A stretch of 64,000 nt of DNA. It comes from Pseudomonas sp. UMAB-08 (GTDB lineage: Bacteria > Pseudomonadota > Gammaproteobacteria > Pseudomonadales > Pseudomonadaceae). The translations under genes were made by a program, and so were the position numbers. Where the stretch lies: NCBI RefSeq assembly GCF_900095225.1, contig NZ_LT607435.1, positions 1 to 64,000 on the forward strand, written 5' to 3'. Below the pieces are notes generated by a model that saw only the letters and a list, made by a program, of their open reading frames with translations, was not told the DNA's origin and searched no databases. Positions 56,233 through 64,000 of the stretch are shown one piece after another (position 1 is the stretch's first letter; each line of letters opens with the position of its first letter).

Positions 56233-57513
56233 CTATTTGGGGTCGAAATGTGAGGTCTTGCTGGCCTCCAGGCCTGACCACAGTTCGTCGATGCCTTTGA
56301 AGCCCCAATCTTCAACTCTCTCGCGACTGATAATTCTGTCCTCCCCCGCCCGCTTGGCCAGATCCACTATGGTTTGCTCAATGGGCACTCTGGATCGAGC
56401 CGAAAAGAACACCTTCACTTTCGGTGTCAGCAGCGACTTGTCGTGCTGCTCAATGACCACGCCGATGCGCCCGCTTTCCAGGCGAACCAAGGTGCCGACC
56501 GGATAGATGCCGATGCATTTCACAAATGCCTGGAATATTTTCTTGTCGAAATGGCCGTCCCATTCGGCCATTTTTCGAATTGAGTCCGCAGGGCACCAAC
56601 CTTTTTTATAGGGGCGATCAGACGTTATCGCGTCATAGACATCGCAAACAGCTCCCATCCGGGCGAACAGGCTGATCTGCTCACCAGCAAGCCGATGCGG
56701 GTAACCGCTGCCATCGTACTTTTCGTGATGGTGAAGGCACACATCCAGTACCCGAGCACTGAAGTGTCGGCTCCCCAGCAACATCTCCGCACCCGCTTCG
56801 GGGTGACCGCGCATGGTATCGAACTCGGTATCACTGAGCTTGCCTGGCTTATTGAGGATGGCAATGGGGATGGCCAACTTGCCTACGTCATGCAGCAAAC
56901 CCGCCATCCCGGCTTCCTTGACCTGCTCAGCCGAAAAGCCCAGTTGGCGGGCTAATGCGATCATCAACCCACAGACGGCGACCGAATGCATGTACGTGTA
57001 TTCGTCGGACTGCTTCAAGCGCGCCACGCTGATCAGCGCATGGGAATTGCGCAGTAACGAGTTGGAGATGTCCTCGACCAGTCCGCCGATGCCCTCCAGC
57101 TCGACCGCGCGGCCCATACGCAAATCACTGAACATCTCGACAACGGCTGCCTTGGAGCGAGAACACAGCTTCAATGCCTGTGATATTTCTTCCTTCAGGG
57201 ATACTCGAGGCGGCGTAAGGCCCTCTTCTACCTGCTCAGGTGCTTGAGTAGCGGTATCGCTCTCCTCTGATACTTCGCCCGTTTGAGCCGCGCCTGTGTC
57301 GCCCCCCTTATCCGTATCAATCCACAGTTCGGAGAGATTGGATGCGAGAATCCGCTGCAGTTCGCTTTCACTTTTGAGCAGAAAGCTGGGCTTCCAGAAA
57401 GAGTGGTCGACCCATGAGCCACAAAACTTATGAATGTACATCCCGAGGCAAAGCTCGGTCACTGCAATACGTTTAAGCACGATGAACACCGGCTTGTAAT
57501 GAAGCGTGGGCAT
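56233..57513 (-). CDS. HD-GYP domain protein with N-terminal DUF3391
   Basis: 426-residue cytoplasmic protein. The first ~60 residues look like DUF3391, often found before HD-GYP domains. A Glu/Thr-rich linker (about 70-105) follows, then an HD-GYP domain with His176, HD at 208-209 (LLHDVGK), His237, HHHEKYDGSGYP at 261-272. All metal ligands and the GYP triplet are present, so c-di-GMP hydrolysis is expected. The last ~90 residues form a small beta domain (VRLESGRIGVVIEQ) found in other family members. It is convergent with the tRNA gene and near rmcA. Confidence 0.85.
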   Translation of the reverse strand: MPTLHYKPVFIVLKRIAVTELCLGMYIHKFCGSWVDHSFWKPSFLLKSESELQRILASNLSELWIDTDKGGDTGAAQTGEVSEESDTATQAPEQVEEGLTPPRVSLKEEISQALKLCSRSKAAVVEMFSDLRMGRAVELEGIGGLVEDISNSLLRNSHALISVARLKQSDEYTYMHSVAVCGLMIALARQLGFSAEQVKEAGMAGLLHDVGKLAIPIAILNKPGKLSDTEFDTMRGHPEAGAEMLLGSRHFSARVLDVCLHHHEKYDGSGYPHRLAGEQISLFARMGAVCDVYDAITSDRPYKKGWCPADSIRKMAEWDGHFDKKIFQAFVKCIGIYPVGTLVRLESGRIGVVIEQHDKSLLTPKVKVFFSARSRVPIEQTIVDLAKRAGEDRIISRERVEDWGFKGIDELWSGLEASKTSHFDPK

Positions 57514-57570
57514 TACCGCTCTACGGAGTTTTAGTTAAAACGATCCCCGAAAAGTCCCCCGGTCATTCGT

Positions 57571-59193
57571 TTAAACAGAAAATCTCGACACCAACCTGTT
57601 CAGGTCTACCGCGAGCCTGGAGAGCTCGCCACTGGCCACAGATGTCTGGCTGGCAGCCGAAGAGCTCTGGATGGAGAGGTTGCGAATGCTGATGAGGTTC
57701 TGATCCACTGATCGCGCCACGTGTGCCTGTTCTTCCGAGGCGGTCGCGATCAGCAGGTTCCGTTCATTAATAGCGGAAATGGCCGCAGCTATTTCCGAGA
57801 TGGCGACCCCGGCTTCATGGGCAATCGAAAGCGTGGCAGTAGCGTCTCCGCTGCTTTGCTTCATCGATTGCACCGCTTTATACGACCCGGCCTGTATGAC
57901 CTGAATCATTTGCTCGATCTCGTGGGTAGACGTTTGAGTACGGTGCGCAAGCGCCCTGACTTCATCAGCGACGACAGCAAATCCACGACCTTGCTCGCCG
58001 GCACGTGCAGCCTCGATGGCGGCATTCAATGCCAGCAGGTTGGTTTGCTCAGCGATTGAGCGAATGACATCAAGTACCTTGGCGATGTCCTGAGCCTGCC
58101 GGGCCAGATCCTCCACTTCAGTACTGGTCTGATCGACACTCGAATTAAGCTTTTCAATCGAGCCAATGGTCTGACGAACTCTTTCCTGCCCGGTTTTAGC
58201 CGAGCGCTCGGACGCCTGCGTCGAATGCGACGCCGAAACGGCATTGCGCGCGACTTCCTCCACTGCGGCGGTCATCTCATTAACGGCGGTAGCCGCTTGT
58301 TCGGTTTCCATGCTTTGTTGCTGGATGCCCGCGGTGGACTCCTTCGTGATCGCGCTCATCTCTTCTGCGGCGGAGGCCAGTTGGCTGGAGGAATCCGATA
58401 TATGCTGGATCGTAGTTTTGAGACTTAGGAGCATCGCAGCCGTCGCCGTTTGAAGGTCAGTCAGTTCATCTGAACCCGTGACGTCCACTGCGGCCCGCAG
58501 GTCCCCGGCAGCGATTTGCTTAGTTGCACCCAGCAGCGCCAGAACAGGCACGGTAATACTACGGGTAAACGCAGTAGCTACCAAAATCGTTATAATAACC
58601 GCGCCAACGACAAATACGATCGTCAGGGTCAATCCGCTTTCAAAACTATTACGCGCACTCTGACCCGTCAGCTCAGCGCCCTCTTCATTCAGTCGGATCA
58701 AGTCATCAACCGAGGCCTGCAGCGCTTTTGCCGAGGGGCTGGTGACGTCGCGAATGAACACCGTGAGTTCTGCAACAGGCTTCGTCTTACTGAGCTCCAT
58801 GAGCTCGTCTATTTTGGCTTCGTATGCTGCGACGTTGCGGCTGACTTGCTTATATTTATCCCCTTCTTCGGGACTGGAAACAAGGGGAGCATACGCGTCG
58901 GAAATCTGTGTCAACGTCGCCTTCAACGTATTCAACTTTGTTCGTGAAGCGGCACTTTGCCGGTCGTCATCCATCACGAAACGCCGTGCATCGAGGCGAT
59001 AAAGCAGGCCAGCGGCTTCGATTTTCGAGGCTTGGCGCACACTGGGTAACCAGTTGGTTTGAAGATCAATCACTGACGTATTAATGGCGCTCATTTTATA
59101 GAGTTCTGTTCCGCCAAGCCCTACCAGGAGGAGACAGATGATGCCAAAACTGATGAGGGCTCTTGTATTCAGCTTGATATTTCGTAACGTCAT
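57571..59193 (-). CDS. Methyl-accepting chemotaxis protein (four-helix-bundle sensor)
   Basis: 540-residue chemoreceptor. Membrane helix 1 (about 11-30), a helical periplasmic domain of about 160 residues of the 4HB type, membrane helix 2 (about 190-210), a HAMP domain ([11 protein letters not shown]), and the signalling domain with hairpin tip [22 protein letters not shown] (cited here as [18 protein letters not shown]). The ATG at 59193 replaces a longer frame to 59250. There is no C-terminal CheR/CheB pentapeptide; it ends RFSV. Its ligand is unknown. It lies 90 bases downstream of a second receptor on the same strand. Confidence 0.88.
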
Positions 59194-59283
59194 AATGAGC
59201 GCCTTATTATTGTCAGATAACGCACTTTCACAGTAATACCACCGTGACATTGCTTATGTGAATATTGTGTCAAAAACATCCCA

Positions 59284-60882
59284 TCAAAGTTTAAACTGAC
59301 TCACAACTTTTCCTAGCCGCTTGGCATCTTCACCTGCCGCCTTACCACGGGCCAGTGTACTTTCAGACAGTTTGACAGTCCGCACCGCCACGTCGGCCAC
59401 ATTACTGATGCGTTGGTTGATTTCGTCGCTGACTGTCGATTGTTCACGTGCGGCCTCGGCGATCTGCGAACTCATCTCCGAAACGGATGCCACCAGCGTG
59501 CTGATGCGGATTAAAGCCTGACCCGCTGATTCAACCTGCACGACACCTCTTTCGGCATGTCCACAACTGTCTTCCATGACCTTCACTGCTTGCCTGGACG
59601 TATTTTGCAGGCGCTCTATCATCCCTTGAATTTCCTGGGTGGAAGCCTGCGTTCGACTGGCCAGCGTCCGCACCTCGTCGGCGACCACAGCAAAACCTCG
59701 ACCTTGCTCACCCGCGCGCGCCGCTTCAATTGCAGCGTTGAGCGCCAGTAGATTGGTCTGTTCGGCAATAGTGCGGATAACTTCTAGAACGCCACCGATG
59801 GATCGCGAGTGTGTTTCCAGGGCTTGAATGACTTCGGCGGCCCCCCGTACCTCATCGGCCAACGTGTGGATATCAGCGATTGTCTGGTTGATTGCACCCA
59901 GTGCCACCTGCGCCTGGCGATCCGCATCGCCGGTTTGTGTGGAGCTGGCCTGGGCATTGGAAGCGACCCCTTGAACCGTTGCAGCCATCTGATTGACAGC
60001 AGTGGCCACCTGTTCAATTTCAACGCGCAGTACTTCAGCGCTTTGCTCGGCAGCCTGTGCGTCATTGACCAACTGACTGGACGAGTCGCCCAAGGTGTTA
60101 CCGACTTCGGCCACGGTCGATATTTGCAGACGCAGCCCAGCCACAAACTTATTGAAATCAGCGACTACTTCACCGATTTCGTCGTCATTGTCCTGGCCTA
60201 AGGTATGGCTAAGATCGCCTGTTCCCGCACTCAAATCCTGCAATGAATGAGACAAGTGATTTAGCGGCGGCAGCACTCGACGACTGATCAACCATAGCGT
60301 GCCGAGCATGAACACCAACACCAGTGCCCAAGCCAGCAAATTATTAACTTTAAGAGATTCGCGTACCGTGTCGGTTATAGCGAGGTTGGCTCTGTAGTTT
60401 TCAGCCAAGGGGCCGTGAAGAGCCGCAAAGCTTCGGATAACCTCATCCGAATGCCGGTCAAACGCCTCCATTACTTTATCGCCAGCAACTTTGCCTGAGA
60501 CGGTGTATGCCTGAAACATTTGCTCGCCTACGCTATCAAGCCGCTCCATCGGCTCACGCGCAGCCTCCAGCTCACGACTGAGTTCCGGAACCAGACGCTT
60601 AAGCTCAATCAGTTTCTCGAGAGCCCGCTGAAAATGCTGGTGGCCTTCGCTTGCAGCTTCTCGGTCGCCGGTCAAACTGGCGTCGGTATAAAACTGCTGT
60701 ACCTGCGCTGTGTGGTAGCGCAGTTCTTGCGCGCCTTCCTGGGCCTCGCTGAGGTTCCCCAGCTGTTTGCCCAAATCGTCTAACCGGTTGACTTGATAAG
60801 ACGTCCACAATGAAAGACCCAGCGCTACAAGGATGAGTACGGTCGCGCTACACAGCATCAAGCGTGCAATGTTGAACTTCAA
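59284..60882 (-). CDS. Methyl-accepting chemotaxis protein (second of a tandem pair)
   Basis: 532-residue chemoreceptor starting at a TTG (60882) with AAGGA 8 bases upstream. Membrane helix 1 is at about 7-27; the helical periplasmic region (about 28-185) contains [13 protein letters not shown], a motif common in one group of four-helix receptors. Membrane helix 2 (about 186-205), HAMP ([15 protein letters not shown]) and a signalling domain with the same [18 protein letters not shown] tip follow. It ends SQFKL with no pentapeptide. The signalling half is close to the neighbouring receptor but the sensor half is not, so it is not a recent tandem duplicate. Confidence 0.88.
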
Positions 60883-61182: not shown

Positions 61183-61284
61183 TTAGGCGGCTAAGGACCG
61201 CGCAAGAAGCTGACGTTCACTCATGGTCGCCAGATCGGCCGCCACCAAACGGCTCAAGCACGGGCTTGTTACGTTTGGATACAT
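61183..61284 (-). CDS. Small ORF of 33 codons with strong ribosome-binding site
   Basis: On the minus strand AAGGGG sits 8 bases before an ATG (61282-61284). The reading frame of 33 codons begins MYPNVTSP and ends ARSLAA before TAA. The middle, LSRLVAADLATMSERQLLA, can form an amphipathic helix. There is no signal peptide or membrane span. I do not recognise the family. It is divergent from the cytochrome b561 gene (71 bases between starts) and could share its regulation. It is real only if conserved elsewhere. Confidence 0.45.
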   Translation of the reverse strand: MYPNVTSPCLSRLVAADLATMSERQLLARSLAA

Positions 61285-61354
61285 CTTAATATCCCCTTAA
61301 GCTTCAGCTGCCAAGTTCGCGTCGCTTTCACCATTAGCCGCGCGAGGCATGAGC

Positions 61355-61927
61355 ATGAAAATTCGTTTCCCCAGGCACCACAACCTGACTATTGCTCTGC
61401 ACTGGACAACCTTCGGGATCATTATCTTCGCCGTTTGCGCGGTGCTGCTGCGTGATGTTGTCGAGGCCAGTGAAGTACGCCTTCTCCTGCTCAACCTTCA
61501 CCGGTCCTTCGGCGTCGTTATTTTGCTGCTTGTTGTGGCACGTCTGATCGCTCGCTTTCGCATTTCATCTGAGCATGTCTCTGCCAGTTTGCCGAAAGGC
61601 ATTCGTCTTCTTTCGCAGGCCGCGCACACGGCGCTCTATCTGTTCTTGTTGGCACTGCCTGTCACCGGATGGTTGTTCAGCAATGCGGCGGGTAAAGCCG
61701 TCAGTCTCTTCGGGCTAGTGAACTTGCCAGAGCTGATCGCAAAAAACCGTGATCTGGCTGACCAACTCGGTGATGTGCACGAAACCCTGGCATGGCTATT
61801 CATCGCGCTGATCGGTGCGCATGTCGGCGCAGCCCTTTGGCATCACTTCTGGCGTAAGGATGACGTCCTGCGCTCCATGCTTCCTGTACGCCTATTGAGA
61901 ACGCTTGCGCCCATAAACAAGGGCTGA
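61355..61927 (+). CDS. Cytochrome b561
   Basis: 190-residue inner-membrane di-haem protein with four predicted helices, of the bacterial CybB family. Likely haem ligands are His16 (TM1), His49 (TM2), His142 and His156 (TM4 region), with His91 near TM3. It passes electrons between quinol and a periplasmic partner or superoxide. GAGG lies 7 bases before the ATG at 61355 and only 1 base before the in-frame ATG at 61349. It is the first of three genes with the porin-cytochrome (85-base gap) and a soluble cytochrome c. Confidence 0.88.
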   Translation: MKIRFPRHHNLTIALHWTTFGIIIFAVCAVLLRDVVEASEVRLLLLNLHRSFGVVILLLVVARLIARFRISSEHVSASLPKGIRLLSQAAHTALYLFLLALPVTGWLFSNAAGKAVSLFGLVNLPELIAKNRDLADQLGDVHETLAWLFIALIGAHVGAALWHHFWRKDDVLRSMLPVRLLRTLAPINKG

Positions 61928-62012
61928 ACAAAGCTATCGACATGGGGCACGGACACGTACCGGAACAGCCACAACACGTAAAAAAATCGCACTGAGCCAG
62001 CAAGGAAACGTC

Positions 62013-63422
62013 ATGCAGTACACGGACAATAATCATCCCCTCACCTCGATTCACCGGCGCATCAGGCGCAGTCGCATGGGTAGCTGGGCAGCTTTGGCGC
62101 TTTGCCTGAGCCTGCCGTACCAAGCCAATGCCTTGCCAAGCTTCGCCCGCCAGACCGGTCAGGCTTGCACGGCGTGCCATATTGGCGCCTTTGGTCCGCA
62201 GCTCACGCCGTATGGCCAGAAATTCAAGATCGGTGGCTATACCGAAAAAGGCGGCTCCGACGCAGGTGGCCCAGAATCCCTGTTGTCGGCCATGCTGGTC
62301 GGTACCGTCGAGCACACGAGCAAAAAGCTTCCGGACAATGCCGGCCCTTACGATGGCAAGAACGACAACTTGTCGCTCCAGGAAGCCTCCGTGTTTGCCG
62401 CTGGCGGTGTGTCCGAGCATTTTGGCGGCCTCGCTCAAGCCACTTACTCCGACATTGATCGCAAAACCGTACTTGATAACGTCGATCTGCGTTATGCCAC
62501 AACCACCACGCTGGCAGGAAAAGACACCGTTTTTGGTCTGTCGCTGAACAACAATCCGACGGTCCAGGATCCCTGGAACACTACGCCAGCCTGGGGCTTT
62601 CCCTACATGACAGCCGAGCTGGCGCCTGCCCCAAGTGGTTCGCCGCTTATTGCTGGAGGGCTGGAGCACCAAGTGATGGGGCTAACGGGCTACGCCTTCT
62701 GGGACGACAACATCTACGTTGAACTCGGCGCTTACCGCAGCCAATCTCTTTGGATGCTGAAAAAGACCAACGTGGCGCAAACCAGCGCCGACGTGAGCCA
62801 GATAAGTGGTTTGTCGCCCTATTGGCGCGTGGCATACACCAACTCATTTAACCGGCAGAATTTCAGCGCCGGGTTGTTCGGCATGAACGCCGACATACAC
62901 CCCGGTTCGACGTCCGGAGCGACGGATAAATACCGGGATATCGGCGTCGATGCGAGCTACCAGTTTCTGGGCACTCGCCGCCATGTCTTCACTCTCAACA
63001 GCAGCTTGATCCATGAGAAAAAGACCCTGGATGCTTCGCTCGCTGCCGGGGATGTTGGTCGTAGCGACAACACGACCAACGCGCTGAACCTGAACGGCTC
63101 GTACTACTTCGACAATACCTACGGCGTCACCTTGGGCTACTTCAACAACTTCGGTTCCAAGGAAGACACCACCGCCTTCACATCGAACCCTCTGGACGGC
63201 AGTCGCACAGGCCTTACGGACACCAGCGGCTACATACTTCAGGCCGACTGGTCACCGTTCGGCAAAGAAAATTCGTGGGGTGCGCCGCTGGCCAACGTAC
63301 GGTTGGGCGCGCAATACACGATGTATAGCCGCTACAACGGTTCAAGTACTAACTACGACGGCAATGGCCGCGATGCATCAGATAACGACACCTTGATGCT
63401 GATGATATGGACTGCCTTTTAA
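62013..63422 (+). CDS. Cyc2-like outer-membrane porin-cytochrome c fusion
   Basis: 469-residue protein. A long-n-region signal peptide ends at QANA (about residue 40). The mature N-terminus is LPSFARQTGQACTACH, with one c-type haem site CTACH at 52-56, then PQLTPYGQKFKIGGY to residue 76. This fits the pattern FARQT-CxxCH-PxL-GxxFxxxGY that marks Cyc2, the fused cytochrome-porin of iron oxidisers. The remaining ~390 residues show alternating polar and aromatic strands and end in Phe (MIWTAF), typical of a beta-barrel. AAGGAA precedes the ATG; a start at 62076 would give a shorter signal. Its partner genes are a b561 and a cytochrome c. Function is inferred from motif and architecture. Confidence 0.72.
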   Translation: MQYTDNNHPLTSIHRRIRRSRMGSWAALALCLSLPYQANALPSFARQTGQACTACHIGAFGPQLTPYGQKFKIGGYTEKGGSDAGGPESLLSAMLVGTVEHTSKKLPDNAGPYDGKNDNLSLQEASVFAAGGVSEHFGGLAQATYSDIDRKTVLDNVDLRYATTTTLAGKDTVFGLSLNNNPTVQDPWNTTPAWGFPYMTAELAPAPSGSPLIAGGLEHQVMGLTGYAFWDDNIYVELGAYRSQSLWMLKKTNVAQTSADVSQISGLSPYWRVAYTNSFNRQNFSAGLFGMNADIHPGSTSGATDKYRDIGVDASYQFLGTRRHVFTLNSSLIHEKKTLDASLAAGDVGRSDNTTNALNLNGSYYFDNTYGVTLGYFNNFGSKEDTTAFTSNPLDGSRTGLTDTSGYILQADWSPFGKENSWGAPLANVRLGAQYTMYSRYNGSSTNYDGNGRDASDNDTLMLMIWTAF

Positions 63423-63442
63423 TGCATGCCGGAGAGGTTCAA

Positions 63443-63844
63443 ATGCAAACACGTAGAGCAGCACCCCTTCAGAAACTGGTCTTGACCGCGCTTACATGCA
63501 TGGCGCTGACGCAGTTTGCATCGCCTGCGAGCGCCGCCGACGCGACTGCCGGAGCTGACTCGTTCGACGCCAACTGCTCGGACTGTCACAGCCTGGCCAA
63601 ACCGTTGAAAAACAAGAAAGGCCCCAGCCTGGTCGGCGTACTCGGTCGCCCATCGGCCAGCGTGCCGGGCTTCGACTATTCCGACGCCATGAAGGCCGCG
63701 AACCTGAAGTGGACTGCTGATAAGCTCGACGCTTACATCGCCAATCCAAAAGCCGTAGTGCCCGAAGATAAAATGAAGTTCAAGGGCCTGCCGGATGCCA
63801 AGGAACGCGGTGATTTGATCGAGTTTTTATCGCAGCAAAAATAA
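63443..63844 (+). CDS. Periplasmic class I cytochrome c
   Basis: 133-residue monohaem cytochrome of the c2/c550 type. Signal peptide ends at SPASAAD (about residue 31), haem site CSDCH at 45-49 and likely axial Met111 in DKMKFKGL. GGAGAGG lies upstream of the ATG at 63443, 20 bases after the porin-cytochrome stop, so it belongs to the same operon. It is a natural shuttle between the outer-membrane haem and inner-membrane partners. Confidence 0.9.
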   Translation: MQTRRAAPLQKLVLTALTCMALTQFASPASAADATAGADSFDANCSDCHSLAKPLKNKKGPSLVGVLGRPSASVPGFDYSDAMKAANLKWTADKLDAYIANPKAVVPEDKMKFKGLPDAKERGDLIEFLSQQK

Positions 63845-63883
63845 GCGCTTCGCGGTGATCTTCAGCCGCTGATTCGCTTTGCA

Positions 63884-63910
63884 AGAAAGCCGCGCATTGC
63901 GCGGCTTTCT
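63884..63910 (+). terminator. Intrinsic terminator of the b561-porin cytochrome-cytochrome c operon
   Basis: AGAAAGCCGCGC (63884-63895) and GCGCGGCTTTCT (63899-63910) form a perfect 12-bp stem with loop ATT. The remaining bases to 64000 show no feature. Confidence 0.8.
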
Positions 63911-64000
63911 GCGTTTCCGAGGGTGCACAGTGACGACCTTGTCATTTAGCCCCCCCTACAACTTTTTCATTGAGTCACCCTGACGCTCCCAATCATTTGC

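Follow-up and report, generated by a model that had tools for sequence, protein, structure and literature searches.

A Cyc2-family cytochrome-porin predicted to be encoded together with a cytochrome b561 and a cytochrome c in a discrete, most likely acquired segment of a Pseudomonas genome

Are Cyc2 genes outside the known iron oxidisers iron oxidases? This open question (PMC8406198) is raised here by a pseudomonad. The window, i.e., the whole 64,000-nucleotide stretch of Pseudomonas sp. UMAB-08 DNA that was analysed, carries at positions 61349 to 63844 a same-strand (+) trio of genes. The first encodes a CybB-type cytochrome b561, the second a fused cytochrome-porin, and the third a class I cytochrome c. 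ORF calls bear out the gene set that the initial annotation had proposed, namely, a b561, a protein with a single CTACH site ending in Phe, and a cytochrome c. The start of the b561 gene was moved from 61355, which is the second in-frame ATG, to 61349. The ORF of the cytochrome c spans 63407 to 63844, with 63407 as an alternative start; the ATG at 63443 is favoured by a GGAGAGG ribosome-binding site recognised by eye. No sigma-70 promoter consensus was found for the operon. The features are as follows.

61349..61927, + strand: cytochrome b561, CybB-type (192 aa), di-haem b and quinone-reactive by homology; assigned by PF01292, PDB 5oc0, and the CybB histidines
62013..63422, + strand: predicted Cyc2-family fused cytochrome-porin (469 aa), with signal peptide (residues ~1 to 40), haem site CTACH (52 to 56), and 16-strand barrel (~91 to 468); assigned by motif, family, AlphaFold and structure match, and homology to a rus-operon Cyc2
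62130..62210, + strand: cytochrome segment (AxPxFARQT, CTACH, PxL), defined by sequence and kept across 116 core and 10 divergent homologues
62292..62294, + strand: Met94 codon of the cytochrome-porin, in 107 of 116 core homologues
63443..63844, + strand: class I (mitochondrial-type) cytochrome c (133 aa) with CSDCH; assigned by PF00034 and by cytochrome cy and iso-cytochrome c matches
61216..63881, no strand: inserted segment with the entire operon, delimited by blastn against the locus of the Pseudomonas relative G299
63884..63910, no strand: perfect hairpin with a 13-bp stem, resident terminator of a convergent cupredoxin gene, from the comparison with the G299 empty site

The identity of the middle protein is central to the question. 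Its N-terminus (ALPSFARQTGQACTACHIGAFGPQL) fits the published motif AXPXFAR[Q/K][T/Y]...CXXCH...PXL, termed unique to Cyc2 by its authors (PMC8406198): ALPSFARQT lies upstream of the only CXXCH (CTACH) and PQL lies downstream, in agreement with the Cyc2 signature first noticed in the sequence. With 469 aa and 16 predicted strands, the protein also has the size and fold expected of Cyc2 (at least 365 aa and a 16-strand β-barrel). It had no Pfam match and no convincing NCBIfam match, its relatives showed no consistent Pfam match, plain and profile sequence searches of the PDB retrieved no solved relative, and a scan of viral contigs yielded no relatives. A scan covering 84,980 species genomes gave at least 595 encoded relatives. 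A single CxxCH occurs in 90 of the 91 homologous frames from fetched loci (window gene counted), the remaining frame being masked at the site. The AlphaFold model (45 aligned sequences as input; pLDDT 89) begins with short helices that surround the haem site at the N-terminus and continues with 16 strands, and a structure search with this model matched the 16-strand porins OmpC (Z 22.6) and OprP (Z 21.2), as well as OmpF. The 16-strand barrel for which the initial annotation had suggested looking was predicted with high confidence. Met94, on the first strand of the barrel and widely kept among the core homologues, is a candidate distal haem ligand.

To anchor the family, rusticyanin was sought in genomes with cytochrome-porin matches. 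One of them (G661) carries a rusticyanin-like gene, scoring slightly below the curated cut-off of the rusticyanin family, 7 kb from its cytochrome-porin match, in the order cyc2-cup-coxB-coxA-coxC-...-ctaA-ctaB-rus (names by inspection of the sequences), and such a gene order is known from Acidithiobacillus and Acidihalobacter (PMC10654088). The window protein aligns over its full length with this Cyc2, whose identity rests on the operon context (463 residues, 29.6% identity, E 7.5e-59). The best full-length matches were other cytochrome-porins, including this rus-operon protein, and not members of an unrelated cytochrome family, the outcome that had been named as fatal to the Cyc2 proposal. 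A tree of 126 sequences suggests that the window Cyc2 falls on the rus-operon (Cluster 2) side. Judged from sequence and model, the middle protein is a genuine Cyc2-family member, which would reside in the outer membrane, consistently with its signal peptide and barrel.

The Acidithiobacillus-type rus-operon Cyc2 (Cluster 2, PMC7029218) shares with the window protein the N-terminal single CxxCH, the FAR motif, the 16-strand porin, and adjoining carrier genes. Unlike those operons, that of the window has neither rusticyanin nor a co-encoded oxidase; its Cyc2 is accompanied by a class I cytochrome c and a b561. Mariprofundus Cyc2PV-1 (Cluster 1) resembles the window protein in motif and predicted 16-strand architecture, as compared by its published description (PMC8406198), whereas the difference was judged from divergent family members, which align with the window protein chiefly via the cytochrome segment (N-terminal residues ~35 to 150). 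The Bradyrhizobium Cyc2 cluster, with a HiPIP and three cytochromes c (PMC5566968), likewise has soluble carriers adjoining Cyc2 in a non-classic iron oxidiser, but no b561 has been described in it. Cyc2 relatives also occur on Acidiphilium and A. ferrooxidans plasmids (L010:4890-6258 and L009), with transposase genes alongside; the relative on pACMV3 is broken into two frames.

How the operon reached its host is indicated by G299, the single relative with which the insertion site was compared. In blastn alignments, the left and right flanks were 89% and 94% identical at the nucleotide level, positions 61216 to 63881 were missing, and 27 other bases stood where the window has the 2.67-kb segment. 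This segment comprises the complete operon, including its leader. Cytochrome-porins were found in only 3 of 399 genomes sampled from the genus, and family matches in 69 of 369 sampled from the class. This rarity in the genus and the foreign affinities of the genes favour gain over loss from G299, so that the operon sits in a discrete segment that was most likely acquired horizontally. The GC content was not clearly indicative of transfer, and a target duplication was not seen at the ends of the insert. G299 and a further Pseudomonas genome (G006) encode, at other sites (L012 and L013), a different Cyc2 (about 40% identical) along with a di-haem cytochrome c; on sequence grounds, there are at least two Cyc2 lineages in the genus.

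As for the surroundings, the minus strand immediately before the upstream end of the insert (56233 to 60882) encodes a tandem pair of methyl-accepting chemotaxis proteins together with an HD-GYP-type protein, and chemotaxis and HD-GYP-type genes also flank the empty site in G299. On the other side (L011:8968-11687, i.e., window position 63967 to position 66686 of contig C22) lie genes for the convergent cupredoxin, a Tat-signal metallophosphoesterase, an ECF sigma factor, and a zinc-finger anti-sigma factor. This resident cluster is also kept in Pseudomonas genomes G011 and G006 without the Cyc2 operon. The terminator initially described as shared by the three genes exists as a hairpin and probably does end the operon, but it is not the operon's own: it lies outside the insert and is present in the G299 empty site, and it was therefore assigned to the cupredoxin gene, from which the operon appears to borrow it.

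Phylogeny places the window Cyc2 in a ten-member subclade (SH-aLRT 90 in the 126-sequence tree) that includes Solimonas, Uliginosibacterium, and several further genomes. To our knowledge, neither of these two named members is known for iron oxidation, which counts against the inward Fe(II) explanation given below. A cytochrome c gene of the same type adjoins cyc2 in all ten members, although that of G682 contains two in-frame stops. A b561 gene adjoins cyc2 in six of the ten (five upstream and one downstream) and is nearly absent next to cyc2 from the other loci scanned for context. The b561 partner pointed out in the initial annotation is thus real and recurrent, with intact quinone-site histidines, and the b561-cytochrome c partnership with Cyc2 is apparently undescribed. 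The new points are the type of operon, the host in which it occurs, and its location in a discrete segment; the Cyc2 family and its electron-transfer role were already known. The b561-cyc2 module of G682 (L138:5360-8869) stands, by inspection of the sequence, beside a NiFe-hydrogenase small subunit gene, and in G514 (L151:5305-9063) cyc2 and its cytochrome c gene are followed by two more c-type cytochrome genes, forming a longer electron-transfer cluster.

Trees and identities of the partners bear on their common origin. The window b561 groups with those of Solimonas, Uliginosibacterium, and G682 (bootstrap 85, SH-aLRT 90) and not with the subset of own-genome paralogues placed in the tree. 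The cytochrome c is 66% identical to the Cyc2-linked cytochrome of Solimonas and at most 43% identical to the other Pseudomonas ones compared. Since both proteins are nearer their subclade counterparts than their Pseudomonas relatives, the three genes seem to have been transferred as a unit. A mitochondrial-type cytochrome c is not in itself foreign to Pseudomonas, as 58 of 99 genomes carry one (about 31 to 43% identity), and that idea was rejected; what argues for shared transfer of the cytochrome c is solely its closeness to Cyc2-linked forms. Upstream of its Cyc2 gene, G006 encodes a two-component system and also a b561. This b561 was considered as independent proof of the link and rejected, because it groups with a core Pseudomonas paralogue; the adjacency there may be due to chance.

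The b561 itself matched PF01292 with 92 bits, and its closest solved relative is E. coli CybB (PDB 5oc0, E 1.4e-23), with which it shares the fold family. All six CybB histidines (H13, H45, H87, H137, H151, and H158) are aligned and kept, i.e., the four haem ligands and the two residues of the quinone site, H87 and H158 (PMC11869295). CybB is a superoxide oxidase, superoxide arises when O2 oxidises Fe(II), and another b561, LcoA, counters peroxyl radicals in partnership with a lipocalin of the periplasm (PMC9113575), all of which would suit a protective role, with b561 oxidising superoxide or scavenging radicals and the cytochromes detoxifying surface iron or oxidants. However, the CybB superoxide site R30, R35, R38, R108, and K134 reads R, A, R, A, and G in the window protein, whereas the host's b561 paralogues L167 and L180 retain K30, K/R35, R/K38, and K134. 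Replacing R30, R108, and K134 together strongly lowers haem reduction by superoxide in CybB (PMC11869295). With only R30 and R38 left of the five cations, the superoxide-oxidase reading is weakened, and we consider a protective role highly improbable. Another difference from CybB is that the gene of the window b561 is linked to those of cytochrome c and Cyc2.

The cytochrome c best matched cytochrome cy and mitochondrial (iso-)cytochrome c (E down to 4e-27), and the Met of its KMKF motif aligns with the axial-Met region; these matches place it among the cytochromes that deliver electrons to cytochrome oxidases. The host genome encodes seven COX1 homologues (haem-copper oxidases), and no RuBisCO match was found in it, which together argue for mixotrophic or protective rather than autotrophic use of the operon.

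From the computed features (family, fold, operon, absence of the segment from a relative, shared gene ancestry, and haem and quinone histidines), we infer localisation, substrate, electron direction, and the role of b561 as follows. Cyc2 would lie in the outer membrane, with its mono-haem cytochrome segment at the periplasmic N-terminus of the 16-strand barrel; as proposed for the family (PMC8406198), the haem would plug the pore at its periplasmic mouth. Through the pore, this haem would receive an electron from a dissolved reductant, most likely Fe(II), and hand it to the class I cytochrome c encoded alongside, which would carry it to one of the haem-copper oxidases of the host. In the inner membrane, b561 would link cytochrome c and the quinone pool as an accessory. 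A horizontally acquired module of this inward type is the explanation that we hold probable. Alternatively, the electrons entering this inward path might not come from Fe(II); Mn(II), Cu(I), reduced phenolics, and the product of another cell are examples of other donors. Cyc2 homologues are frequent in bacteria without known iron oxidation, for which other functions have been considered (PMC8406198, PMC5566968), and our genome scan found relatives in nitrifiers, methanotrophs, and soil heterotrophs. Yet the Cyc2 proteins with reported biochemical tests, one from each of three clusters, oxidise Fe(II) (PMC8406198), which makes another donor unlikely; A. ferrooxidans Cyc2 and Cyc2PV-1 are iron oxidases by biochemical evidence (PMC8406198).

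The CybB haems have potentials of about -23 and +48 mV (PMC11869295), ubiquinone of +90 mV, and Cyc2PV-1 of +208 mV (PMC8406198). These are family values and not those of the window proteins; they make flow from quinol to cytochrome c downhill and the reverse uphill, so b561 is better seen as a cytochrome c donor, or as a valve for redox balance, than as the place where electrons enter the quinones. Two further points count against the inward explanation: moving electrons from cytochrome c to quinone through b561 would be uphill, and a purely inward path leaves the retention of b561 unexplained. An outward conduit, from quinol through b561, cytochrome c, and Cyc2 to an extracellular acceptor, would run downhill from quinol to cytochrome c and would account for the haem-ligand and quinone-site histidines of a b561 common to the subclade; in an Mto system, too, a b561-containing protein has been suggested to provide the connection to quinone (PMC5566968). 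Nonetheless, a haem at +208 mV would be a poor donor to phenazines and most Fe(III) minerals at neutral pH, a single haem cannot span the membrane, and the core evidently works without b561, which is not adjacent in four of the ten close modules and nearly absent in the wider family. Outward conduction is accordingly quite doubtful. As b561 is missing from the neighbourhood in these four modules, we regard it as accessory and the inward path as primary. A bolder and tentative idea, against which we would still wager, is a quinone-coupled Cyc2, in which b561 and the soluble cytochrome link the quinone pool to the mono-haem conduit, making up a three-gene, possibly reversible cassette that spreads horizontally.

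The earlier statement that no function is described for such an operon in Pseudomonas agrees with the literature found, in which the one Mn-oxidising Pseudomonas searched for Cyc2 lacked it (PMC9634551). Genetics is difficult in classic iron oxidisers (PMC8406198); here, a compact operon and a relative with an empty site make the role of Cyc2 outside them testable by gaining or losing 2.7 kb. A quinone link, which we did not find described for Cyc2, could be reached by way of the recurrent b561. A Pseudomonas-type bacterium without such a reputation may move electrons across its outer membrane and, if the quinone-coupled Cyc2 proved true, ordinary heterotrophs would gain a minimal cassette for extracellular electron transfer.
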